Shown: piece after piece, positions 49,147-62,234 of the stretch
Layout of the letters: every line of letters begins with the position of its first letter
Numbering within the stretch: the stretch's first letter is position 1
NCBI RefSeq assembly: GCF_001887775.1
Contig: NZ_CP015519.1
Span: forward strand, 496,001 to 560,000
Direction of reading: 5' to 3'
Source: Syntrophotalea acetylenivorans
Lineage (GTDB): Bacteria; Desulfobacterota; Desulfuromonadia; Desulfuromonadales; Syntrophotaleaceae
DNA length: 64,000 bases
Notes under the pieces: generated by a model
The model's database searches: none
What the model saw: only the letters and a program-made list of their open reading frames with translations
What the model was told of the DNA's origin: nothing
Translations under genes and position numbers: made by a program

Positions 49147-50145
49147 ATGACGGATCAATCCAATTTCAGCGAAGACGAATTAACCGATAGCAGCAGTCCC
49201 GCCGATGCAGAAGACTCTGAGAAGGAAGAATTGGCATGCGCTCCGGTAACTAAAAAGAAAAAGCGCACGGCTGAAGATGAAGATACTTCTTCTGGTGATG
49301 ATGCGATCAAGCTCTACCTGAAAGAAATTCAAAAGACCAAACTTCTCACAGCCGAAGAAGAACGTGCCCTGGCTCGACGCATTGCTTCCGGAGATATGGC
49401 CGCACGCGATCACATGATCGAGTCCAACCTGCGCCTGGTTGTGAAAATTGCTAAGCGTTACATGAACCGAGGGTTGCCCTTTCTGGATTTAATCGAAGAA
49501 GGAAACATGGGGCTGATCAAGGCGGTCGAACGTTTCAAGTTAAGCAAGGAATGTCGTTTTTCCACCTATGCTACCTGGTGGATAAGGCAGTCCATTGAAA
49601 GGGCCCTGGTTAATCAGAGCCGTACTATACGGCTCCCGGTTCATGTGTCCGACGATATAAACAAATTTATCAAAATTAGCCGGGAATTAGTTCATCGGTT
49701 TAATCGGGAACCCCAGGTTGAGGAAATTTCCGAGGCTATGGGTGTTGAGCCTGCCTATATCCGACGCCTTATGGTCCTGGTAAAAAAGACCTATTCTATT
49801 GAACACCCCATGGGCGAGAATCGAGATTATAGCCTCATAGACACCATCGAAGATACCAATGCTGATGATCCTTCGGTTTTCCTTGAAGATTTAGACAAGT
49901 TCGCTCACATCCAGGAATGGCTCGAATCTTTAGCAGACAATGAACGAGAAATTCTGGTGCTTCGTTTTGGACTTGAAGATCGGGAACCACAGACGTTGGA
50001 TACTATTGGGCAAAAGTTCGGAGTTACGCGCGAAAGGATTAGGCAGATAGAAGCCAAAAGCCTTGACAAGTTACGTAAGATCATGGAAGAAAAGGAAGCA
50101 GAAAGCAGGGCCTTTATGGAACAGGACCTAGCAAGCAGACAGTGA
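49147..50145 (+). CDS. rpoS: RNA polymerase sigma factor RpoS
   Basis: A stress/stationary sigma-70-class factor of 332 residues. Region 1.2 begins [17 protein letters not shown], region 2 has [20 protein letters not shown] and [14 protein letters not shown], and region 4 has [20 protein letters not shown]. The acidic N-terminus lacks region 1.1. ATG 49147 lies ten bases after GGAGGT. The surE-pcm-nlpD-rpoS order supports RpoS over RpoH or RpoD. Confidence 0.92.
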
Positions 50146-50215
50146 TTGTCACAGGTAAAGTCTTTTTATTTGTTATTGGTAAATATTATCTGTTTTGCCG
50201 GAGGGGAAACTGATT

Positions 50216-50731
50216 GTGGATGACTTGAAAAATGCTATTCGGGATATACCCGATTTTCCTAAAAAAGGAATTGTCTTTAAAGATATAACCACTCTTTTGG
50301 CAGACGCTAAAAGTTTTCATCGCATGGTAGATCTGATAGCACACCGTTACCTTGATAAAAAAATTGATCAGGTTGTCGGTGTTGAGGCACGAGGTTTCAT
50401 TTTAGGAGCTGCGTTGGCCTATAAGTTGGGATGCGGCATTACTTTGGTGAGAAAACCCGGGAAACTGCCCTATAAGACCGTTTGCAAGAGCTATGAGCTC
50501 GAGTATGGAACTGACACCCTGGAGATTCATGAAGACGCTTTTCATAAAGGGGACAGGGTCATCGTCGCCGATGATTTGCTGGCTACTGGGGGTACGGTAT
50601 CGACGGTCGTGGCTCTGGTCGAACAGCTTGGTGCCGAGGTCGTTGAATGTGCCTTTTTGGCCGAATTGGATTTTCTAAAAGGGCGTGATCGTTTGCCTGA
50701 AGGAAAAGTTTACAGCCTGCTGCGGTATTAA
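50216..50731 (+). CDS. apt: Adenine phosphoribosyltransferase
   Basis: Salvages adenine to AMP with PRPP. At 171 residues it has the usual length, with [18 protein letters not shown] and the PRPP loop [16 protein letters not shown] 50216 is preferred because GGAGGGG lies at 50199-50205. Confidence 0.94.
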
Positions 50732-50747
50732 CGCCACAAGAAAGGCC

Positions 50748-50776
50748 TTGCCAATCTTTTTGGCATACGCTATAAA
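50748..50776 (+). promoter_or_regulatory. Promoter of tRNA-Arg
   Basis: TTGCCA (50748-50753) and TATAAA (50771-50776) with a 17-bp spacer, 10 bases upstream of the tRNA. Confidence 0.7.
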
Positions 50777-50786
50777 ATTTCCTTTT

Positions 50787-50863
50787 GGCTCCGTAGCTCA
50801 GCTGGATAGAGCAACCGCCTCCTAAGCGGTAGGTCTTGGGTTCGAATCCCGACGGGGCCGCCA
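50787..50863 (+). tRNA. tRNA-Arg (CCT)
   Basis: A 77-base cloverleaf: acceptor GGCTCCG/CGGGGCC, anticodon stem ACCGC/GCGGT around CTCCTAA, and T-arm TTGGG/CCCGA. CCA is encoded. A terminator follows, and the accessory cluster begins just downstream. Confidence 0.95.
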
Positions 50864-50870
50864 AATATTT

Positions 50871-50910
50871 CAGCCACTTAGCAGTTTTTGCTAGGTGGCT
50901 GTTTTGTTTT
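50871..50910 (+). terminator. Terminator of tRNA-Arg
   Basis: A 13-bp stem CAGCCACTTAGCA/TGCTAGGTGGCTG with one G-T pair, followed by TTTTGTTTT. Confidence 0.85.
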
Positions 50911-51048
50911 GGGTAGCGAATTGGGTAACAAATTCAACGGCCAATTGGCCATAAAAGAAAAATGAGCCGGGAGGGGGAAGCTTACGATATAAACGGAGAA
51001 TACTTTTCAGGCGGACCGGATTAAGCGGGAGGACTGCTTTGGTATGGG

Positions 51049-52368
51049 CTATTCTTGACAGTTCTTCTTTTGTCCCCCCGAGTCCGTCGGCCTCTTTGGG
51101 ATCACCAGCGGCCCCTTGATCGCCTCCATGACTTGGGAAGCAGGGTACCCGTGCTCCAGAAGGGTGGTCATCGCCCGCAGGTATTTACGGATGTGGCGGA
51201 AAAACTTCCGGTAGCCGGCGCAGAGATAGTGTAGGCCAGATTCGTCGTAAGGACTGCGGGCAAAACGGTGCTTGGGGCATCCGCCCTGGCAGGCCGCCAA
51301 CACCTCGCAATCCCGGCACCAGCGCGGCAGGGAGCTTTCCTTGTTCTGGCCGAAACCCGACTGCAGCGACGTGTCGACCATTCGGGCCAGGTCGTCGGAG
51401 CTGATGTTGCCGAGCCGGTATTCCGGATAGACATGGTGATCGCAAGCAAACAGGTCGCCGTTGTGCTCGATTACCACCGATCCGCCGCACTGTTTGGCGT
51501 GGATGCATACCGGGGAGGGGTTGCCAAGCCACGCGTTAAGCGCCCACTCGAAGTTCATGACGAAGGTTTGACCGACGTCGTTGCGCACCCAGTCCTCGTA
51601 GATGGCGATGAGAAAATCGCTGTATTCTTCCGGAAGCACTGTCCAGGAGGTGACCGCTGTGTTTGTTTCCTCCCGGTCGAGGACTGCCGGTCCGGCCAGG
51701 TTGAGACCGAGTTCCTGTTCGGCCGCGGCCGGTAGTCGTTCGATAATCGGAACGAACTGGATGAACTCGACTCCCTCGTCTTTGAAGAAGCGGTAGACCT
51801 CCAGAGGCTTTCGTGCTGTCTCACGGGCGACGCTGGCCATGACGTTGTACTCCACGCCATGCTTCTGCAAAAGCTTCAGCCCTCGCATGACGGCGTCGAA
51901 ACTGCCTTCCCCCTGGCGGTCGCGCCGGTAGCGGTCGTGTATCTCCCGTGGACCGTCGAGGCTGAGGCCGACCATGAAGTGATGCTGCTTCAGAAAACGG
52001 CACCAATCGTCGTCGAGCAGGGTGCCATTGGTCTGCAGGACATTGGTGATGGTCTTCAGGCTTGCGAAGGGCCTTTGCAGTTCGACCACCCGACAGAAGA
52101 AATCGACGCCTAGGAGGGTCGGTTCCCCTCCCTGCCAGACGAACTCCACCACCGGGGTCGGCTGGGTTTCGACATAGTGCCGGACGAAGGTGGCCAGCGT
52201 CTTGTCCGACATCCGGTAATTTTCGTTGGCACGGTAAAGAGCTATCTTCTCCAGATAGAAACAGTATGCGCAACTGAGGTTGCAGAGCGGCCCGATCGGC
52301 TTAGCCACGATGTGAATACCCTGAGCTGCGCATGCGGCGTTATCATCCGCTGAGCTGTTGCTTATCAA
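51049..52368 (-). CDS. Anaerobic sulfatase-maturating enzyme (radical SAM/SPASM)
   Basis: Oxidises a Ser or Cys in a sulfatase to formylglycine without oxygen. The 439-residue protein has the radical SAM motif CNLSCAYC (C29, C33, C36) and a C-terminal SPASM region with CGGS, FACDHHVYPE and CEVLAACQGGCPKHRF, which would hold two further [4Fe-4S] clusters. The start is probably TTG 52368 after GGGGAAG. Its likely client is the arylsulfatase 3 kb away in the same strand run. Confidence 0.9.
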   Translation of the reverse strand: MISNSSADDNAACAAQGIHIVAKPIGPLCNLSCAYCFYLEKIALYRANENYRMSDKTLATFVRHYVETQPTPVVEFVWQGGEPTLLGVDFFCRVVELQRPFASLKTITNVLQTNGTLLDDDWCRFLKQHHFMVGLSLDGPREIHDRYRRDRQGEGSFDAVMRGLKLLQKHGVEYNVMASVARETARKPLEVYRFFKDEGVEFIQFVPIIERLPAAAEQELGLNLAGPAVLDREETNTAVTSWTVLPEEYSDFLIAIYEDWVRNDVGQTFVMNFEWALNAWLGNPSPVCIHAKQCGGSVVIEHNGDLFACDHHVYPEYRLGNISSDDLARMVDTSLQSGFGQNKESSLPRWCRDCEVLAACQGGCPKHRFARSPYDESGLHYLCAGYRKFFRHIRKYLRAMTTLLEHGYPASQVMEAIKGPLVIPKRPTDSGGQKKNCQE

Positions 52369-52454
52369 AACTTCCCCTTTTCTGTCCTCAGCGGAACTTG
52401 CCAGATTTGTGTCTTTGCTTAAATTGATAGGATGCCGGGTCTCTCAGCGTTCAC

Positions 52455-53210
52455 TTAGTCGATCCAGCCTTGTTCCTGGAAGCGCATCTTGAGCACCTCT
52501 GCTAGTTCCTTGGCGGTTTGCTTGGCCCGACCCTCCACCTTGCCGCTACCGGTTTTTTCTTCATGTAATTTCACACCGGTGCTGACAATGAGTCCCAGCG
52601 GATTGGCCGTGGCGATCCAGGCAGCAGCTCCCACTGCGGCCCCGGGAGTTTTTCCGCCGCCGGCCTCGGTCGTGCCACCACCCAGCTTGCGTAGCCCCTG
52701 ATTCGTCATCTGAAAACCTTCGACCGCTACATTCAAATGGGACGAACCGGAGCCCAATCCGACCAGAACGCGCTTGGAGGTTTCCCCTTCTTCAAAGGAA
52801 ACGATATAGCCCTGGATGACGAGGTCATTGAGTTGCAGTCTTGTGCTTCCGGTTGCATGTTGCGCAATTAAACCCATGTCGCGGATCTGAGATACCAACT
52901 CCCTCTGGATTTCAGCACCCAATGCATGCCCTTCGGCGATATGCTCGGCCGTTTGGGGGGTGCTGTGTTCGGCATACTGCGCGGCCAGCGTGGAGTGGAT
53001 CGGAAGATCGGCCGGCGTAGCGGCGAAGTCATATACCCAGATGTGCGCAGGGCGGGGCAGCTTGCCGCTCACGACTTGTTTGCGATCTACCTTGGTCGAG
53101 GCGCACCCGGCGGCAACGATCATGGTGATCAGGCAGGGAACGACTATCGCGATCTTTCTCAGATAATCCGAGTGGAATTCGGACAGTTTCTTGAATTTTT
53201 GATTGCCCAT
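52455..53210 (-). CDS. DUF4410 lipoprotein
   Basis: A 251-residue lipoprotein with lipobox VAAGC (C36) after a long N-terminal region. The mature part matches DUF4410 (IWVYDFAATPADL, GSSHLNVAVEGFQM). The 3' part has a Gly-rich segment (GGGTTEAGGGKTPG). Function is unknown. GGAGG precedes the start. Confidence 0.75.
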   Translation of the reverse strand: MGNQKFKKLSEFHSDYLRKIAIVVPCLITMIVAAGCASTKVDRKQVVSGKLPRPAHIWVYDFAATPADLPIHSTLAAQYAEHSTPQTAEHIAEGHALGAEIQRELVSQIRDMGLIAQHATGSTRLQLNDLVIQGYIVSFEEGETSKRVLVGLGSGSSHLNVAVEGFQMTNQGLRKLGGGTTEAGGGKTPGAAVGAAAWIATANPLGLIVSTGVKLHEEKTGSGKVEGRAKQTAKELAEVLKMRFQEQGWID

Positions 53211-53252
53211 GACTGCCTCCTTTTTTGAGGAAAAACTATTGAACCTTCCGAA

Positions 53253-54470
53253 TTATTCTACCGAAGCGAAGCCTGGCGGCGCTTTGTGCCAGGGGTAGCC
53301 CTTGGCGGCCATTTCGTAACCTACCTCGAAAAGCTGGCGCATGTATTCTGTATCGAATTCCTCTTCGTGAGGTGCATCGAAGGTTGCCGGGATAAAGGCA
53401 AGGTTGAAATCCGCTTCGTCCCGTTTCGCGATCAGGTAGATTCGATCCAGATCACCTATGCCCTGGGTCTGGATCAGGGAGGATATGGCCCGGCCGACAA
53501 TCGACAGGGTCCGTCGTTCTACCTGGCTCCATTCCGGATCCAGGCGACTGTTGCGAATGACATAGACCATTCTTTCGCGCTGATGCGTGGCCGCCTGGAC
53601 CTCCTCAATGTGTATAGAGGGGGGGTAGACAAAGACCTGGTTCGTGGCACCGCCGTCAACATGCATTTCCTGATAGTGCTTGCCATCAACGGTCACGTCG
53701 ATCAGTACCGGCGGAAAAGCTCCCGGAATGGCCGCGGAGGCGATCATGATGGTCCGGAACAGTTTGAGCGCTTTGGGGTCGTCGCTGGCGGCGATTTTGG
53801 TCATGTTCCAGATCACCGGTTGTTGCGCGTCCAGGTCGGTGGTGCCGACCAACAGAAGCCTTCCTCTGGAGAGGTATTCAGCAGCGATGGCGTCCAGCAT
53901 TTCACGAGTGATATGCTTTTCCAACAGGCGCCATAAAGGAGCGTTGTCCGCCATGGCGTCGCTGAAAATGGCGGCCAGGATATTGCGTGGTTTCGCGATG
54001 TCCTGGCCGGATATGTTCGTATATACCTCCTTCAGCGTGTCGTCGTATTGCGGTCCCAGAAAAGCAAAGGGGGCAATCAGGGCACCGGTGCTGATGCCGG
54101 TCACCAGCTTGAACTCCGGCCGGTTGCCGGTAGCCGTCCAGCCGTTCAACAAGCCGGCGCCGAAAGCTCCGTTGTCGCCGCCGCCGGAAATCGCCAAAGC
54201 AATGGCCGGCGGCATGGGGGCTTCATGGCCGAGGACTGCCAGGTAGGACAGTTCTCTTTTGTTGCACTCGATTCCCTCCAGGGCCATTTCGGTATTGTCT
54301 ATTCCGACCCGATAGCGTACGCCGGGAAGGCCGGGGATTTCCCCCCGACCTTGCAAGGCAGCGGGCAATGCCGTATGCCGTTCGAGTTGGGCGCACCCTG
54401 GTACAAAAACCATGAAAGCGACAACTGCCATGCAAATACGGGTTAACCAACAGTCTTTTTTCCATTTCAT
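53253..54470 (-). CDS. Patatin-like phospholipase lipoprotein
   Basis: A 405-residue predicted lipid acyl hydrolase. It has lipobox FVPGC (C26), the oxyanion loop SGGGDNGAFG (95-104), nucleophile serine S127 in GISTG and the dyad aspartate D272 in DGGA. The complete dyad suggests activity. The lipoprotein signal points to the envelope, an unusual but known location for patatins. Confidence 0.88.
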   Translation of the reverse strand: MKWKKDCWLTRICMAVVAFMVFVPGCAQLERHTALPAALQGRGEIPGLPGVRYRVGIDNTEMALEGIECNKRELSYLAVLGHEAPMPPAIALAISGGGDNGAFGAGLLNGWTATGNRPEFKLVTGISTGALIAPFAFLGPQYDDTLKEVYTNISGQDIAKPRNILAAIFSDAMADNAPLWRLLEKHITREMLDAIAAEYLSRGRLLLVGTTDLDAQQPVIWNMTKIAASDDPKALKLFRTIMIASAAIPGAFPPVLIDVTVDGKHYQEMHVDGGATNQVFVYPPSIHIEEVQAATHQRERMVYVIRNSRLDPEWSQVERRTLSIVGRAISSLIQTQGIGDLDRIYLIAKRDEADFNLAFIPATFDAPHEEEFDTEYMRQLFEVGYEMAAKGYPWHKAPPGFASVE

Positions 54471-54591
54471 AAAATGCGTCCTTTTGCCAAAGAGGATGGT
54501 CTTGCTACAGATATTTTGGCTAGTTCCTTAGCTGAGGAGACTCATTTAAAATTATCAGAAGAAAGCGGATGAACAATCGAGGTGACTCATT

Positions 54592-55116
54592 TTATTCATG
54601 ACCTTGGTCAACCCGGGTTCCAGAGGGGCCAAAAAATATGCGAGCCATGCGCTCACGGCCTAGAATTCTAATAAGTTCCCGTAGCGAACAGAAAACGAGA
54701 AAAATAATCAACAGCCAGATCTGAATGGCCCAGAAATGTGGCCAAACGACCTCGTCAAGCAGGTGCCTGTTAGCCCGAGCAAGGTCTCCATGTTCCCGCA
54801 CAAAGTGAAGTAGTTGCTCGATATAACTTACCAACAGTGCAGCGATCATGTAGATGATGGTTTTCCACAGCACTCCGAAAATAAGCGGCTTCTTACGAAA
54901 TCGACTCATAAACGGCAGCAAGTCCGCCAGAAGAACCACCTTGGCGACAACCAGCGCCGCGATGGTTGCGGTCACAAAGGTGGATACCTGGATACCGTAC
55001 TGCCGGAGCATAAGTGCCTGCGTAAAAGCGATCACCTGAAACGCAATAAAAAAGAACACTGCCGCCGGGATAGCTTCGACAAGCTCGTGCTTCAATCTGG
55101 ATGTTATGTGACCCAT
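54592..55116 (-). CDS. Four-helix integral membrane protein of unknown function
   Basis: 174 residues with about four hydrophobic segments (AAVFFFIAFQVIAFTQA, FVTATIAALVVAKVVLLA, IIYMIAALLVSYIEQL, AIQIWLLIIFLVFCSL). No family is recognised with confidence. ATG 55116 follows AAAGGA; a longer in-frame start at 55170 would run into the terminator hairpin. Confidence 0.65.
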   Translation of the reverse strand: MGHITSRLKHELVEAIPAAVFFFIAFQVIAFTQALMLRQYGIQVSTFVTATIAALVVAKVVLLADLLPFMSRFRKKPLIFGVLWKTIIYMIAALLVSYIEQLLHFVREHGDLARANRHLLDEVVWPHFWAIQIWLLIIFLVFCSLRELIRILGRERMARIFFGPSGTRVDQGHE

Positions 55117-55140
55117 CGGCTTTTTCCTTTGCTGCCAGAT

Positions 55141-55186
55141 AAAAAAGCCCTCCCAAGAGAAGGGCATCATGCCCTTCTCTTGGGAG
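55141..55186 (-). terminator. Terminator of the arylsulfatase gene
   Basis: A perfect 16-bp stem (55150-55165 with 55171-55186) followed on the minus strand by six T (55141-55146). It separates the arylsulfatase from the membrane-protein gene. Confidence 0.9.
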
Positions 55187-55240
55187 ACAATTTCACTTTT
55201 CAGTTTGACAATATCTTCTTGGGGTGACCGCCTTGCGGAG

Positions 55241-57616
55241 CTAATCCGCTTGTGCTGTTTCAGGCTTCTTTACCTCTTCCACTTCGATAGTGACCTTGGG
55301 GATTTTTCCGGTGAACTTCGATGCCCTCTCGGAGCCTATGGTTTCGACCACAGGAGTGGCCAGGTCGATGCCCACGTCGGCGGTTTCATCGGCCGAGAAG
55401 ATTATCGGCTGGGTGCGGGAGATACGGCCCTGGGCGGCCTGCTTCCCGTTCACGTAAAGTGTGGCTTCTCCTCCTTTGCCTAGTCCGCCACCGTCGTAGG
55501 CGAACTCGAAACGGATGGTCGACTTGCCGGGTGGTAATATCTCCTTCGCAGAAATCGTGGTTCGATGCAGGCCGAGAAAGTTGTAATCGTAAGCCGGAAC
55601 CCCCTCTTTGACATACAAGGCCCAGCCGCCGAAGCGTCCGCCCTGGACAAGAATAACGCCGTTCCCGCCATCCTCCGGCACCTCTACTACGGCGGTGATG
55701 GTCTTAGACTTGTTTTTAATATTCAGGAAGACATTCTCGGTCATACCAGTCATGCCTTCAGCGAGCGTTAGCGAAGTCCGCCCCGCCATCACATCCGGAC
55801 GTCCTACCAGATCCCCATTGAGACGCATAAAGACTCGATCGTCTATAGGCAACACATAATTCTTCTCGGCCTCCGACAGGAACAGGGCCTGCAGTTCCGC
55901 GAGTTTCTGAGGTTTTTTATTTGCTAGGTCGTTCACCAGGCTGAAGTCGCTGCGCGTGTCGTAAAGCTCCCAGATATCTTCGGCGAGGCCGCGGCGTGGT
56001 TGCCTTTCCCACGGAGCTTTGTGGATGGTTCGCGCGAACCAGCCGGCGTGGTAGATAGCCCGGTTGCCGAACATCTCGAAGTATTGGGTGACATGCCGAT
56101 CCTTAGCTTCGCCATCGTCGAAGCTGTAGACCATGCTCACTCCGTCCATGGGGACCTGCGGAGTGCCGTTGACCTTTTTGGGCTCGGGCAGACCGGCAGC
56201 TTCGAGGATAGTCGGCGCGACATCGATTACATGGTGAAACTGGGTGCGCATTTCGCCCTTGGTCTTGATGCCTCTGGGCCAGTGAATGGCCATGCCGACC
56301 TTGGTGCCGCCGTGGTCCGAGGCGACCTGCTTGGTCCACTTGTAGGGGGTGTCAAAGGCCACCGCCCAGCCTGCGGCCATATGCGGATAGGTCTCTGGCC
56401 CGCCCCACTTGTCCATGACCTTGATCATGTCCTCGACCTTTTCCTGTACGCCGTTAAAGTAGGTCATTTCACTGAACATGCCATTTCGACCACCCTCGGC
56501 GCTGGTGCCGTTGTCGCCGTAGACCAGGAAGATCAGGGTATTGTCGAGCTGGTCGGCACTCTCGATGGCCTTAATGACCCGGCCGATCTCATGGTCGGTC
56601 ATCTCGACATAAGCGGCGAACACCTCTGCCTGGTGGGCGAAGAGCTTCTTCTCGTCAGCATTCAGGGTATCCCAGTCCGGGATAGCCGTGGGCTTGGGGG
56701 CGAGCCTGGTGCCCTTGGGAACAATGCCTTTCTCTATCTGTCGCGCCAGGATCTCCTCGCGCAGCTTGTCCCAACCCTGATCGAACTTGCCTTTCCAGCG
56801 GGCGATCCATTCTTTCGGCACATGGTGCGGCGCGTGAGTGGCGCCCGGCGCAAAGTACACAAAGAAAGGCTTATCCGGGGTCAACGCCTTCTGGTAGCGG
56901 ATCCAGGCGACCGTCTGGTCCGTCATGTCGTTGAGAAAGTGGTAGTTCGGATCCTCCGGCAGTTCGACCGGGTGCACCCCGTCGTAAATGAACGGCGCCC
57001 ATTGGTTGGTCTCGCCGCCGAGAAAACCGTAGAACTTGTCGAAGCCCTGGCGGGTCGGCCAGCGGTCAAGAGGGCCGGCGATACTCGCCTCCCAGGCTGC
57101 GGTTTCGTGCCACTTGCCGAAGGCCGCGGTGCTGTAGCCGTTGAGGCGCAGCATCTCGGCCACAGGCGCAACGCTGTTCGGGATCTGGCCGGTATTACCG
57201 GGAAAGGCCGTGCCGGTCTCGATGATTCCGCCCATGTTGTTGACGTGATGATTGCGCCCGCTCTTAATGGCTGCCCGGGTCGGGGAGGAAACGGCAGTGG
57301 TATGGAAGTTGTTGTAGCTGAGCCCCTCTTCAGCCACATGATCGAAAGTAGGGGTTGAAACCGGTCCGCCGAAGGTGCTGGTCCCCGCAAATCCCAGGTC
57401 ATCAACCAGAACGATTACCACATTTGGCGCTCCGTCAGGGGCTTTTACCTCGAAGCGAGGCGGTGGTGTGGCATCCCTGACATCCAGGGTGCTGCTGTTC
57501 GGATACTGGGGGTCAGGAATCGGTAAGGTGGTGCGATCCAAGCCGGTCTGTGCCGTGGCTGCGCAGGCTGTTCCCAGCGCCAGGCTGAATAGGCCAAAAG
57601 CTGCTGTTTTTTTCAT
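55241..57616 (-). CDS. Ser-type arylsulfatase
   Basis: An exported sulfate-ester hydrolase of 791 residues. After a signal peptide, the alkaline-phosphatase-like fold begins VVIVLVDDLGF with a metal-binding DD at 72-73. The modification motif is SSPTR (S110-R114), with serine in place of cysteine as the formylglycine precursor, followed by SGRNHH. FGKWHE and DNGTSAEGG are further active-site segments. The last 170 residues look like a beta-sandwich domain. The Ser-type motif needs an anaerobic maturase, which is encoded nearby. The natural substrate is unknown. Confidence 0.9.
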   Translation of the reverse strand: MKKTAAFGLFSLALGTACAATAQTGLDRTTLPIPDPQYPNSSTLDVRDATPPPRFEVKAPDGAPNVVIVLVDDLGFAGTSTFGGPVSTPTFDHVAEEGLSYNNFHTTAVSSPTRAAIKSGRNHHVNNMGGIIETGTAFPGNTGQIPNSVAPVAEMLRLNGYSTAAFGKWHETAAWEASIAGPLDRWPTRQGFDKFYGFLGGETNQWAPFIYDGVHPVELPEDPNYHFLNDMTDQTVAWIRYQKALTPDKPFFVYFAPGATHAPHHVPKEWIARWKGKFDQGWDKLREEILARQIEKGIVPKGTRLAPKPTAIPDWDTLNADEKKLFAHQAEVFAAYVEMTDHEIGRVIKAIESADQLDNTLIFLVYGDNGTSAEGGRNGMFSEMTYFNGVQEKVEDMIKVMDKWGGPETYPHMAAGWAVAFDTPYKWTKQVASDHGGTKVGMAIHWPRGIKTKGEMRTQFHHVIDVAPTILEAAGLPEPKKVNGTPQVPMDGVSMVYSFDDGEAKDRHVTQYFEMFGNRAIYHAGWFARTIHKAPWERQPRRGLAEDIWELYDTRSDFSLVNDLANKKPQKLAELQALFLSEAEKNYVLPIDDRVFMRLNGDLVGRPDVMAGRTSLTLAEGMTGMTENVFLNIKNKSKTITAVVEVPEDGGNGVILVQGGRFGGWALYVKEGVPAYDYNFLGLHRTTISAKEILPPGKSTIRFEFAYDGGGLGKGGEATLYVNGKQAAQGRISRTQPIIFSADETADVGIDLATPVVETIGSERASKFTGKIPKVTIEVEEVKKPETAQAD

Positions 57617-57740
57617 TCGCTGCCTCCGTTATTCGACTGCCGTCAGATATGGAATTTCGTTGTCCTGGAATCCATTTAGCTCATCTTTATCTATCTACTG
57701 AAAACCCCAGATCCTCAACCGAGACTTTTCCGGGGAACCT

Positions 57741-58478
57741 TTAAAAGGTTCCTCCCAAACCAAGAATAAAGCCGTGGAAAGCGGCATCGAATTTGTTGCC
57801 GCTGCTGCCTTCGGTGTCATAGTAGAGACGACGGTACCCCAATCGAGCAATCCAGGTGTCGTTGAAGTGGAATTGGAACTGCGGCTGCAGTTCATAGGTC
57901 AGGTCCGAGTCGCCTGCGCCGACTGAAAGAGTTGGATTGAATCGCCAGCGCTTGCTGAGCTGAAAACTTGGGCGGACAACCAGTACTCCATCATAGATGT
58001 CGGTTTTCCTGCTGCCCGAGGCGGAGGCATTTCCGGATATGGTCAGCTCGTTGTCCATGCGCGTATAACGAAGCCCGCCAAGAATGTCAAAGGTCATGCC
58101 TTTTTTCCAGCCATCGACCTGGATGCCCGTTGCAACGGTCAGAAGCAAGGTGTCCGATTCGACTTCAACTTTGGAGCCCTCGATTTTGCCGACGTTTTCG
58201 TCATCGCTGATCTCGAAATAATCCACCTGCAGCCAGTTTACCCAACGCCCCTTTTGAACCACCGCCAGCAGGCCGCCGGCGAAATCGACCTTGTCGATCA
58301 GATCCTCCACGCCGACATCGACCTCGACCTTCGTTCCTTTCACGGTAATGTCGCCATCAATGCCTACCCCCCACATGTAAGGGGCTATCTCGCATTTCCA
58401 ACCACCAGCGGCTGCCCAGACTGGTGTGGTTAACAGCCCTAAGACTAAAATTGCCAGCAAGCACCAACATTTTTTCAT
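57741..58478 (-). CDS. Outer-membrane beta-barrel protein
   Basis: A 245-residue protein with a signal peptide and alternating amphipathic strands. APYMWGVGIDGDITVKG, KGRWVNWLQVDYFEI and a C-terminal GLGGTF aromatic end are typical of a small uncharacterised outer-membrane barrel family. ATG 58478 follows GAGGAGGGG; longer in-frame starts lack one. Confidence 0.7.
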   Translation of the reverse strand: MKKCWCLLAILVLGLLTTPVWAAAGGWKCEIAPYMWGVGIDGDITVKGTKVEVDVGVEDLIDKVDFAGGLLAVVQKGRWVNWLQVDYFEISDDENVGKIEGSKVEVESDTLLLTVATGIQVDGWKKGMTFDILGGLRYTRMDNELTISGNASASGSRKTDIYDGVLVVRPSFQLSKRWRFNPTLSVGAGDSDLTYELQPQFQFHFNDTWIARLGYRRLYYDTEGSSGNKFDAAFHGFILGLGGTF

Positions 58479-58575
58479 TTTTCCCCTCCTCTTAAACCCG
58501 GTTGTGGCATGGGTGTGCCTGGGTTGAATAAACAGTGCCCTGACGTCCATGCCGAGCGGTTGGAACGCGTTGCCC

Positions 58576-58974
58576 TCACCTAGGATCAAGGCAGGCGCCG
58601 AACACCATGAACCCGTGACCGTCGCCAGCAGCACTCAGGGTCAGATTGCCTGATTCTTTTCCCAAGGCAATGCTCCACCCTCTTTGCTCAACCCCCTGTA
58701 GAACAGTAATTTCCTCCAGCTGCTTGATCAGGTTGATCTTGGTATCGTTCCTTTTGACCGCTTTGTCGAGGGAGACGATGGTCTGTTTATCGAGGTCGAT
58801 CCTTACGAAACGGGGCAGGGCCATCTCCTCGATGGTCAATTCGCCGCACTCTCCATCCGCGGTGCATTCGTAGGCCCTGGTAAGAGTGCAGAGGCGGGAG
58901 GTCATCTCTTCAGCAGCGAGCGGGACAGCCACCAGGAGTATCGCAAGTGTGTAAAGCAGTGATTTTCGTATCAT
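58576..58974 (-). CDS. Small exported protein of unknown function
   Basis: 132 residues with a cleavable signal peptide (LLYTLAILLVAVPLAAEE). The mature part contains three cysteines near its start (RLCTLTRAYECTADGEC). No family is recognised. A good AAGGAG site supports the start. Confidence 0.6.
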   Translation of the reverse strand: MIRKSLLYTLAILLVAVPLAAEEMTSRLCTLTRAYECTADGECGELTIEEMALPRFVRIDLDKQTIVSLDKAVKRNDTKINLIKQLEEITVLQGVEQRGWSIALGKESGNLTLSAAGDGHGFMVFGACLDPR

Positions 58975-59014
58975 GACTTGCTCCTTATGAGTTTATGTGC
59001 CGGGAAACCCCGGG

Positions 59015-59515
59015 CTACCTCACCGTATAGCCTTTGCCCTCCATGCAGGCTCCCCAGGCCCGGTTGTACTGGCCACGCTGCTGCTCGTAGCTTGCCTGCT
59101 GCTGTTGGGCCCACTGCTCCTGTTGTTGGCTGCTCTGCCGGCGCCGGGCACCGCCGATAATCCCTCCGGAGGCCGCTCCGATGGCCGCTCCTGTACCTGT
59201 ATCACCGGCAATGGCCCCCACTGCGGCCCCTAGCAGAGCTCCGCCGGCGGCACCTTTCAATGCGCCTCCCTTCTGCTGGGGGGGAGGGGTCTGCGCCGTT
59301 GGAGGTTGCATGGGGTCGAAGCCGGTCTGCTGCCTGGCCCACTGGTAACAATCGTATTTATCTTTTTCTACCTGGTCCGGGGCCTGTCCCTGGCTCGGAT
59401 AGACGATCGGCTCCTGAGCTCTGCACATTGGTGTCAAAGCACCGCCTGTGCCAATCAGCACAGCAACCGCTACCCCAAAAGCGACAACCCACCATGTTCT
59501 TCCAGCAATTTTCAT
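59015..59515 (-). CDS. Glycine-zipper exported protein
   Basis: 166 residues with a signal peptide (WWVVAFGVAVAVLIGTGG). A Gly/Ala zipper (GAAGGALLGAAVGAIAG, then GAAIGAASGGIIGGARRR) is followed by a Gln-rich tail and CMEGKGYTV. It resembles YMGG-type glycine-zipper envelope proteins. ATG 59515 follows AAGGAGG. Confidence 0.75.
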   Translation of the reverse strand: MKIAGRTWWVVAFGVAVAVLIGTGGALTPMCRAQEPIVYPSQGQAPDQVEKDKYDCYQWARQQTGFDPMQPPTAQTPPPQQKGGALKGAAGGALLGAAVGAIAGDTGTGAAIGAASGGIIGGARRRQSSQQQEQWAQQQQASYEQQRGQYNRAWGACMEGKGYTVR

Positions 59516-60094
59516 ACTGTGCCTCCTTATTGCTCGTATGGTGTGATGGTTCACCCTGCCTGCGCAACTCAACTCGTGAATGAAACAGGATGGGAAACTT
59601 TGTTTTTCATGCACTTACAAATGCTTAGCCTAAATTTAAGCTTAATATTTATTATTGTTAAATCAATTGAATTTTAAAAACTTAGATTTTTTCATCAAGA
59701 TTAACCTAATGGGCAAACAGGTAAGCTTCTACGATATGTCACGTTTACCAGAACGTCGAACGGCCCAACTTATGGAAACAGGTTGGGCCGTTCTGCATTT
59801 TGTATTAAATTGATTCTAGCGTTGTCAGGATTTATTAGTCATCAGAAAGATACTCAGCGGACCTGATTCCTGACACTATCTATATAGGTTTTTAGATAGA
59901 AATACGCGGATGCAGCTTTTGCGTCAGAGGAGGGGAGGGCAATGACTTCAAATAAATGCCAGTATTTATTGCATCGGACAGTAAGCATGTTTTGATGGAT
60001 TAAGTGAATTGCCTTGAAATTGTTTAAAAAAAACCTATGATGGAAAGGACTGGTCGACGATTCGTCAGGGAGTTGTTACGAACAAGGAGTGTTC
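59516..60094. other. Gene-free divergent region with orphan hairpin
   Basis: 579 bp between divergent genes. It is AT-rich at 59610-59710 and contains a terminator-like hairpin at 59759-59792. No protein gene is credible. Confidence 0.4.
59759..59797 (+). terminator. Orphan hairpin, possible terminator of a small RNA
   Basis: An 11-bp stem AACGGCCCAAC/GTTGGGCCGTT followed by CTGCATTTTG, a weak T-tract. No annotated gene ends here. Confidence 0.5.
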
Positions 60095-61584
60095 ATGTTC
60101 GAATCTGCTGAACTGGGTCATCGGATTGACAAGGAGGTCTACAAGCAGCAAGTTCCCTCCTTGCGAGAAAACCTGCTCGATGCGCAGCTCGACCTGTTGC
60201 AGAGTAAAAAGTTCTCGGTGCTGATCCTGATTGCCGGTGTCGATTGCGCCGGTAAAGGCGAAACAGTTAACATCCTGAATGAATGGCTTGATCCACGCCA
60301 TGTGGAAACCCATGCTCTGCGTGATCTTACGGATGAAGAATTGGAACGTCCTCCCATGTTTCGTTTCTGGAGGGCGCTGCCGGCCAAGGGTAAAATCGGT
60401 GTCTTTATCGGTACCTGGTACTCCACGCCTCTGATTCAAAATGTTTATGGCAATATCAGTAACGCTGAATTCGATCAGCGCCTCGACCGAATCATTCGTT
60501 TTGAAAACATGTTTGTTCGGGAAGGGGGCTGATTCTCAAGTTCTGGTTACATTTGTCAAAAAAAGAACAGAAAAAGCGTCTTAAGGAACTCGAATCCGAT
60601 CCTAAAACCAGCTGGCGAGTCACTAAAACTGATTGGCGTCACTATAAGTTGTACGACAGGTTTCGACAAATTTCCGAACGCATGTTACGCACCACCAGTA
60701 CTGTCGAAGCTCCCTGGAATATTGTGGAAGGGGCTGATTCACGCTATCGTTACCTGACTATCGGACAGTTGATCCACAAGTCGCTGGTACGGCGTCTTGG
60801 TGTCACAGTAAAGACTTCCGGCGCTGAAACGTTACCACCACTGACGACTGCCATTGACGGGCTGAGGATTCTACAGTCCCTCGATTTACAACAGTCGTTT
60901 AAAAAGAGCGACTATCGTGATCGGTTGGCCAAATGGCAAGGGCGGTTAAATCTCCTCTCCCGTCACCCGGATTTTAAAAATATTTCCGTGATGGCCGTCT
61001 TTGAAGGCAATGATGCTGCTGGTAAGGGGGGCAGCATTCGACGGGTCATACAGGCCCTCGATGCTCGTTCCTATCGGGTTGTTCCGGTTGCCGCGCCCAC
61101 CGATGAAGAACTTGCCCAGCCCTACCTGTGGCGCTTTTGGCGAAATTTGCCGCGCAGGGGACGTTTTGCGATCTTTGATCGGTCCTGGTACGGTCGGGTG
61201 CTTGTCGAACGGGTAGAAGGCTATTGTTCTCAGGACGACTGGATGCGTGCCTATGGCGAGATCAATGATTTTGAGGAACAGATGGCACGCCACCGAATAG
61301 TGGTGGTTAAATTCTGGCTCGCCATCAGCAAGGAAGAACAGTTGAGGCGCTTTAAAGAACGAGAAAAGATTGGTTTCAAGCGATTCAAGATTACCGACGA
61401 AGATTGGCGCAACCGCGAAAAGTGGGATGAATACCAAACGGCGGTCTGCGACATGATTGACCGTACCAGTACTGAAATCGCGCCTTGGACTTTGGTAGAA
61501 GCCAACAATAAATATTTTGCCCGAATCAAGGTGTTGCAGACTCTTTGTAAACAGATTGAAGGAGCTCTGGCCGTTAAGGCATAA
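60095..61584 (+). pseudogene. pap: Polyphosphate:AMP phosphotransferase (two-domain PPK2), frameshifted
   Basis: Uses polyphosphate to phosphorylate AMP to ADP (class II PPK2). Two tandem PPK2 domains are visible: the first with GVDCAGKGE, LDPRHVETHA and IGTWYS; the second with EGNDAAGKGGSI, LDARSYRVVPV and DRSWYGRVL. The reading frame breaks at a G5 run (60524-60528): the first part ends VREGG-stop, while one extra G gives VREGGLILKFWLHLSKKEQKKR and continues to 61584. The full protein would be about 496 residues, the usual size. ATG 60095 follows AAGGAG. It is either a true pseudogene or a sequencing error. Confidence 0.88.
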
Positions 61585-62234
61585 TGTACGGACTTGTTTT
61601 TCATTTAGGATGCCTTTGATCAAAAGGGTGCTATGGTCGGAAACGTCCAGCAATTCATGAGGCAAAGGGTTCGCTGCTCTCATCGGAAGAAAAAGATTCT
61701 TGTCAGGCTATTGCCGCCGAGAAGTCCGGGTTAGCCAGCCAAAGTGTCGTTGGTTTGCTTGCTCTGGCTGGAGGCACAACCCAGCTCAAAGCAGCGGAAA
61801 CTAGCGGTTTTCCATCGGCCAGAATTGCTATCTGCTGGCGATTTTCCGCCGTAAGGGGATGGCGGTTTTCCCCGTTGATAACATAGGGTCACCTTTTTCG
61901 CAGGGCGGTGACGGGCATCCTGATCCCACCATTTTGGTCGAACCGACCTCGACAAAGAAAACAGTTGCGTTGAACTAAAAAGAAAAAAGTTTTCAGCAAA
62001 AACAGAAAAAGGCAAAACCAAAGGCGCAGGTAATGGTCAGGACAAGCAGTCCAAAGACGATTAGCCTAAAGACAAGAAGACTACGGAAAAAAGCAGCAAG
62101 AAGAAAGGTAAGATGAGGAAAGGCAAGTAGAGGGGCATTTGCTCGGGATAGATTCTTGAAGTCCGGCGCAGTCACTAGTTTTGCCGTGCGCCGCATCCAC
62201 TACACTGACAGCTTGTTTACCGAAAGGACACAAC
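61585..62234. pseudogene. Non-coding stretch, possibly a decayed gene with Lys-rich tail
   Basis: No intact gene in 650 bp. Plus-strand fragments look protein-like but are broken by stops and frame changes. One contains NIGSPFSQGGDGHPDPTIL near 61880. A Lys-rich tail follows in another frame: KGAGNGQDKQSKDD, a stop, then PKDKKTTEKSSKKKGKMRK, ending at TAG about 62130. The parent family was not recognised. Confidence 0.3.

Follow-up and report, generated by a model that had tools for sequence, protein, structure and literature searches.

We analysed a 64,000-nucleotide stretch of Syntrophotalea acetylenivorans DNA (contig NZ_CP015519.1, positions 496,001 to 560,000; hereafter the window), and specifically a run of seven genes in it that encode envelope or exported proteins around a sulfatase. 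The original prediction, made from the sequence alone, had proposed that these genes and a maturase gene could form one undescribed envelope system that hydrolyses lipids or sulfated compounds and takes up the product. All seven genes are indeed present and collinear at 59515-52455 on the minus strand, with the maturase gene next to them, and together they lie in an accessory island of ~9.1 kb that adjoins a tRNA-Arg(CCT) gene on its 3' side. A second genus of the same family has five of the seven genes, again as a collinear block. The features are as follows (aa, amino acids).

59015-59515, minus strand: exported glycine-zipper protein, 166 aa, whose gene heads the five-gene block, matching Pfam glycine-zipper families
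58576-58974, minus strand: small exported protein, 132 aa, without a Pfam family
57741-58478, minus strand: outer-membrane beta-barrel, 245 aa, with ten to twelve strands in the structure model, OmpT/OpcA-like
55241-57616, minus strand: arylsulfatase, 791 aa, with a signal sequence and the Ser-type motif HTTAVSSPTR
55149-55187, minus strand: intrinsic terminator between the sulfatase and membrane genes
54592-55116, minus strand: small membrane protein, 174 aa, a probable passenger with a third-position GC content (GC3) of 0.56
53253-54470, minus strand: patatin-like lipoprotein, 405 aa, with lipobox VPGC, Ser127 in GISTG, Asp272 in DGG, and SGGG
52455-53210, minus strand: DUF4410 lipoprotein, 251 aa, with lipobox AAGC
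51049-52368, minus strand: anaerobic sulfatase maturase, 439 aa, TTG start, radical SAM/SPASM
50787-50863, plus strand: tRNA-Arg(CCT), island boundary
50864-60004: accessory island, its right edge taken from one congener, G297
54416-57718: segment with the sulfatase gene, terminator and membrane gene, inside the block here and missing from the block in the other genus
50909-50927: direct repeat TTGGGTA downstream of the tRNA gene, a possible remnant of a recombinase site

Intergenic gaps are 40-124 bp across the run and 86 bp between the DUF4410 gene and the radical-SAM maturase gene (52368-51049). We identified signal peptides and lipoboxes by visual inspection, along with the Shine-Dalgarno-like stretches that precede most of the starts and are weak for patatin. 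NCBIfam and Pfam back the DUF4410 (Pfam E 1.6e-21), patatin (5e-21), sulfatase (7.7e-56), glycine-zipper and maturase assignments, the barrel protein has a sub-threshold match to an outer-membrane protein barrel family (OMP_b-brl, 1.1e-5), and the membrane protein has no Pfam match, nor has the small exported protein. The terminator at 55187-55149, with a perfect 18-bp stem and a T-run, has the longest stem of the sites in 50000-62000, where our scan returned 21 terminator-like sites versus 14.4 expected in shuffles. Its position after the sulfatase gene indicates that the run is probably made of at least two transcription units and is not one simple operon; together with the arrangement in the other genus described below, it leads us to reject a single seven-gene operon. 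The start of the membrane protein as listed (a 192-aa open reading frame, ORF, from 55170) falls within the terminator stem, so that the gene probably begins at the ATG at 55116. Note that a strong 14-pair stem-loop, in terminator orientation for the plus strand, also lies upstream of the glycine-zipper gene at 59758-59793, close to the island's right edge.

The original prediction called for a search of other genomes for the same set of genes. The complete seven-gene set was present in no other genome that we examined. However, the genome that we refer to as G304, which belongs to the same family and another genus, carries five of the genes in the same order and on the same strand, with identities of 77% for the glycine-zipper protein, 74% for the small protein, 78% for the barrel, 80% for patatin and 72% for DUF4410. 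There is no sulfatase or membrane gene between its barrel and patatin genes. Specifically, window positions 52456-54415 and 57719-59426 align by blastn to one 3.9-kb stretch of G304 (L254), and 54416-57718 is extra here. Farther along the same strand G304 has genes for a DUF3604 protein, two HupE proteins, a maturase disrupted by a frameshift, a Ser-type sulfatase (48% identity to that of the window) and an intact maturase (80%). The frameshifted copy (L253:11631-12859) is a second maturase, ~1 kb from the G304 sulfatase. Thus, the notion of one envelope system gains from five genes that recur collinear with a maturase and sulfatase nearby, and loses from a sulfatase and a membrane gene that stand outside the block in G304. 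Among 120 genomes of the order, three have the patatin, which are this genome, G304 and a third, G399, where the gene immediately ahead of patatin encodes a glycine-zipper protein (60%). The 7.3-kb contig of G399 holds no window gene beyond these two and has DUF2092 and L,D-transpeptidase genes.

Comparison with G304 also bears on selection and on the history of the block. The ratio of nonsynonymous to synonymous differences (pN/pS) is 0.21-0.30 for the five block genes and the maturase, with DUF4410 at 0.34 on a longer alignment, indicating that the block genes and the maturase are under constraint. Synonymous differences between the two genomes are 0.50-0.63 for the block and maturase versus 0.75-0.82 for the chromosomal genes rpoS, apt, ppk and a fourth; between the window and its congeners the chromosomal value is 0.62-0.72. 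The lower synonymous difference of the block suggests that it moved laterally after the two genera had split; this bacterium probably took up the DNA from relatives.

The setting of the block is that of an island. Besides our own genome, 17 have a match to apt; we fetched the apt locus from eight of them, and in all eight the order apt, tRNA-Arg(CCT) is conserved. DNA similarity to the window ends precisely at the tRNA 3' end (50863/50864) in seven of these and at 50935 in the eighth (G301). None of the island genes follows the tRNA in the eight relatives' stretches, of which six run for at least 10 kb past it and two stop after 255 and 1542 bp. The locus thus has one mark of a tRNA-targeted island, variable DNA from the tRNA 3' end onward. 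On the other side, similarity to the congener G297 restarts at 60005, ahead of a polyphosphate kinase gene, and the right edge is known from this congener alone. The unit is therefore bounded by tRNA-Arg on one side and by a polyphosphate kinase gene, which is split here, on the other. Island genes have a GC3 of 0.63-0.75, apart from the membrane gene listed above, and window positions 1-50000 average 0.55 (standard deviation 0.05, 33 ORFs). At E<=1e-60 the sulfatase was found in 3 of 39 other relatives and in none of four further congeners, of which two are represented by incomplete assemblies (86% and 67%).

Several further observations concern the edges of the island and possible vehicles for it. 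In G297 a Phage_integrase gene lies 8-9 kb past the same tRNA-Arg. Short direct repeats occur 3' of the tRNA, TTGGGTA in the window and CTACCACTT-like in two relatives (L241, L243), and these may be arm sites of a recombinase; a search for repeats at the island ends gave nothing convincing. The split gene at 60089-61584 codes for a PPK2-type polyphosphate:AMP phosphotransferase and consists of two ORFs in different frames, where G297 has one frame of 516 aa. Relatives of the sulfatase and of patatin do occur on plasmids, and a search of 72,556 plasmids at E<=1e-5 gave no match to the small protein. Carriage of the module on plasmids was considered and set aside, as the five patatin plasmid loci that we fetched have none of the other tested window genes save for a PPK2-like gene in Thiodictyon. 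On that plasmid (L258:7207-11185) a SulP transporter gene and a polyphosphate kinase 2 gene are followed by the patatin relative (67%); a PPK2 gene likewise borders the window island.

We examined how far these families keep company elsewhere by surveying 297 genomes of the phylum, our own included, with a separate E-value limit for each family. The sulfatase was found in 19 genomes, patatin in 9, the barrel in 12, the small protein in 8, the membrane gene in 12 and DUF4410 in 5. With our own genome excluded, 14 genomes have at least two of these six families (the glycine-zipper gene was not included in this test), and 8 of 24 cross-family pairs lie within 10 kb of each other versus 0.14 expected. 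The co-location of these families elsewhere, with five of the seven genes collinear in another genus, indicates that the run exceeds chance. A single seven-gene system is not supported, and the relatives of the membrane gene in the five loci read have unrelated neighbours. The small protein, which was located by tblastn where a simple longest-ORF picker had overlooked it, has matches in seven other genomes, one of which (G206) failed on reading its locus. In five of the remaining six the glycine-zipper gene adjoins it in the same order by tblastn, and in one of those five DUF4410 precedes the pair. The glycine-zipper and small genes thereby form a recurring two-gene unit in the phylum (L206, L207, L201, L202, L220).

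A second sample consisted of 80 named sulfatase loci and spanned many phyla; contig ends truncate many of these loci, and many do not come from Gram-negative organisms. In this set we found a barrel relative in six loci (five by tblastn and one added by a profile), a maturase in six, a glycine-zipper gene in two and patatin in one, and no DUF4410, small or membrane gene. Any other window family was present in 12 of the 80 by tblastn and in 13 with the profile. Recurring neighbours in sulfatase neighbourhoods include DUF1254/DUF1214, DUF2092, DUF3300, DUF2950, SYLF, FadL and multihaem proteins. Glycine-zipper genes occur near sulfatases in L030, L055 and L069, with no chance estimate made for these.

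The sulfatase has PF00884 and the [CS]xPxR motif, which makes it a type I formylglycine sulfatase of the Ser type, and the genome has no second match to it at E<=0.001. The maturase scores 486.3 bits against TIGR03942 (curated cut-off 349.45), being the only protein of the genome above the cut-off, and has the CX3CX2C motif (CNLSCAYC), PF04055 and PF13186 (SPASM) of an anaerobic sulfatase-maturating enzyme (anSME). We scanned 99 loci (the window, 18 from the phylum and the 80 named loci) for the Ser or Cys motif, and 78 yielded one. A maturase is encoded in the same locus in 5 of 8 Ser-type loci versus 7 of 70 Cys-type loci (one-sided Fisher P 0.0016), a count in which the window is one of the eight, one Desulforhabdus contig apparently stands twice in the Cys class, and L251 and L253 (Ser type with maturase) and L252 (Ser type with none on a short contig) are left out. 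Ser-type sulfatases are periplasmic, and anSME accepts Cys-type enzymes too, according to a review (PMC3920027). The maturase fits a sulfatase of the Ser type, and we infer that it activates this one.

Among the remaining proteins, patatin has the features of a patatin-like phospholipase, with PF01734, a GXSXG motif, D-G-[GA] and a glycine-rich loop. Ser127, Asp272 and Gly96-Gly97 do not vary across an alignment of 12 sequences that contains the window protein and from which two diverged or broken relatives (L159 and L163) were excluded. In the small protein a C-terminal Cys128 is conserved in 8 of 8 aligned sequences and three N-terminal Cys residues in 7 of 8; its single-sequence structure model is poor, with a predicted local distance difference test score (pLDDT) of 55. 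A search by sequence found no solved-structure relative of DUF4410 and only matches at E ~1 for the small protein and the barrel. The barrel model, built from seven sequences (pLDDT 81.6), is OmpT/OpcA-like, with best fits to Legionella porin I (Z 20.4, 9nh1), OpcA (20.2) and OmpT/Pla (~17-19), followed by FadL and OmpW (~9-10); such a shared fold shows no function. The membrane gene has matches in 11 other genomes, and the unrelated neighbours of its relatives in the five loci read argue that it is not part of the system but a probable passenger.

Taken together, we tentatively favour, at a little under an even chance, a reading in which the DNA next to tRNA-Arg(CCT) is a laterally acquired island and encodes an outer-membrane hydrolase module whose Ser-type sulfatase is exchangeable. 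Where the parts of this module reside, that they act together, what they act on and in which sequence are inferred as follows. Its conserved core would consist of the glycine-zipper protein, the small Cys-containing protein, the barrel, the patatin lipoprotein and the DUF4410 lipoprotein, all of them exported. The maturase would turn the active-site serine of the sulfatase into formylglycine in the cytoplasm, in an oxygen-free reaction, after which the sulfatase would be exported and would strip sulfate esters. The envelope-anchored patatin lipoprotein would cut acyl esters, and the other four block proteins would build or stabilise the outer-membrane site at which it acts. The module would thus probably trim or degrade amphiphilic compounds, either acylated or sulfated, at the outer membrane, with the sulfatase as its exchangeable part and the small membrane gene as a passenger.

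Several observations weigh against this reading. The full block is known from only two genomes, with 120 of the order searched with patatin, so that joint function rests on few cases. Only in this genome does the sulfatase sit inside the block, and there a terminator follows it. The eight co-located pairs of the phylum survey come from seven genomes and are not independent, 67 of the 80 named sulfatase loci are without any other window family in the stretches examined, and most patatin relatives occur without other window genes. The lowered synonymous difference may partly reflect strong codon bias of the island genes. Finally, Pfam reveals no integrase among the eight island genes, and no 14-mer of the tRNA 3' region recurs elsewhere in the window, so that a second copy of the tRNA end was not found; these two absences indicate that the island is old or immobile.

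The main rival holds that the island carries independent cargo, with the envelope block having a role of its own (for example in upkeep of outer-membrane lipids) and the sulfatase and maturase being a separate sulfate-scavenging pair. We regard this as possible, if rather doubtful. It would account for a G304 block without sulfatase or membrane gene inside, for the terminator after the sulfatase, and for the full set occurring in none of the 80 named loci. It would also suit the genome G313 of the same order, where a close sulfatase (78%) and maturase (77%) are accompanied instead by FadL, DUF3313, DUF1254/DUF1214 and bestrophin-like genes. Yet both genomes with the whole block carry a Ser-type sulfatase and maturase alongside, even though the sulfatases differ, barrel and DUF4410 families occur near sulfatases elsewhere above chance, and glycine-zipper genes were seen near sulfatases in the three loci noted above. 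The original prediction had itself named genes found separately in other genomes as grounds for rejection. This is what we see for the membrane gene and often for the sulfatase and patatin. It does not apply to the five-gene block as it stands in two genera.

An unlikely explanation, closer to what was first proposed, is one catabolic pathway in which sulfated lipids or other sulfated compounds are hydrolysed outside the cell and the product is imported through the barrel. Hydrolases are indeed encoded together with an outer-membrane barrel, the G313 sulfatase and maturase genes stand beside those for a FadL-type channel and a DUF3313 protein, and in a Foldseek list sorted by E-value FadL entries appear from the fourth place onward, with low TM scores of ~0.3. 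However, the barrel has no PF03349 match that would mark a FadL/TodX channel, and its model is closer to OmpT/OpcA (Z ~17-20) than to FadL (~9). FadL-like uptake is therefore not supported, and neither is the predicted uptake of the product. Pfam recognises neither an inner-membrane transporter family nor a SusC/SusD pair among the eight genes, and relatives of the membrane gene are located elsewhere. A polysaccharide utilisation locus was also rejected, given the missing SusC/SusD pair. An island for competition or defence, in which the patatin lipase and glycine-zipper proteins target other cells or phage, is very improbable: patatin does match the PADLOC model for a phospholipase effector of cyclic-oligonucleotide-based antiphage signalling systems (CBASS; 45.5 bits, E 1.5e-12, no curated cut-off shown) and weakly the NCBIfam one (NF041079, 33 bits), and glycine-zipper proteins are reported to act in contact-dependent killing in Caulobacter (PMC5380434), but the NCBIfam cut-off of 200 lies so far above that score as to reject a CBASS effector, the lipobox makes a cytosolic effector improbable, and the eight genes include no other defence component except for a distant viperin match of the maturase that reflects its shared radical-SAM domain.

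Sulfatase and maturase pairs and tRNA-linked islands are both known kinds of arrangement. The sulfatase of the Klebsiella atsA-atsB pair is of the Ser type. As in that pair, which comprises an arylsulfatase and AtsB (an anSME) and is named as an operon among the references of PMC3920027, the window sulfatase is encoded with a radical-SAM maturase; unlike it, the window pair shares its island with five further exported genes, and the maturase is downstream, three genes and a terminator away from the sulfatase. By profile, one of the closest solved structures to the window sulfatase is PDB 1HDH, the Pseudomonas aeruginosa arylsulfatase AtsA. The two have a sulfatase core in common, with a 1HDH chain of 536 residues versus 791 in the window protein and ~200 C-terminal profile positions outside the match. 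Patatin shares its catalytic Ser and Asp and its glycine loop with PF01734 patatin-like phospholipases and differs from the solved relatives in belonging to a lipoprotein subfamily; those relatives (a cUMP-AMP-activated phospholipase and VipD) match only a short stretch within profile positions 59-155. The barrel has the same fold as OmpT/Pla, OpcA and Legionella porin I (Z 17-20 over ~190-210 residues) at an identity of 6-13%, from which function is not transferable. In other genomes the sulfatase, barrel, patatin and DUF4410 families seen here mix with DUF1254/DUF1214, DUF2092, DUF3300, DUF2950, SYLF and FadL genes in sulfatase neighbourhoods, whereas Pfam detects none of the latter domains in the eight window genes. 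We found no published description of the five-gene block in searches that covered part of the literature, no paper on DUF4410, on DUF1254 with sulfatase or on DUF3604 with sulfatase, and nothing on such a cluster among the matches listed for broader combinations.

A bolder version of the reading we favour, that the block is an undescribed, laterally moving five-protein outer-membrane machine for amphiphiles into which different oxygen-independent Ser-type sulfatases are plugged, is in our view unlikely; if true, it would give the hitherto unassigned DUF4410 and small-protein families one common function. The locus probably illustrates lateral gain of a sulfatase along with its own oxygen-independent maturase. 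If the block does act jointly, it would provide a testable context for DUF4410 and the small Cys protein, and would connect both with anaerobic sulfatases as well as with a lipoprotein acyl hydrolase.

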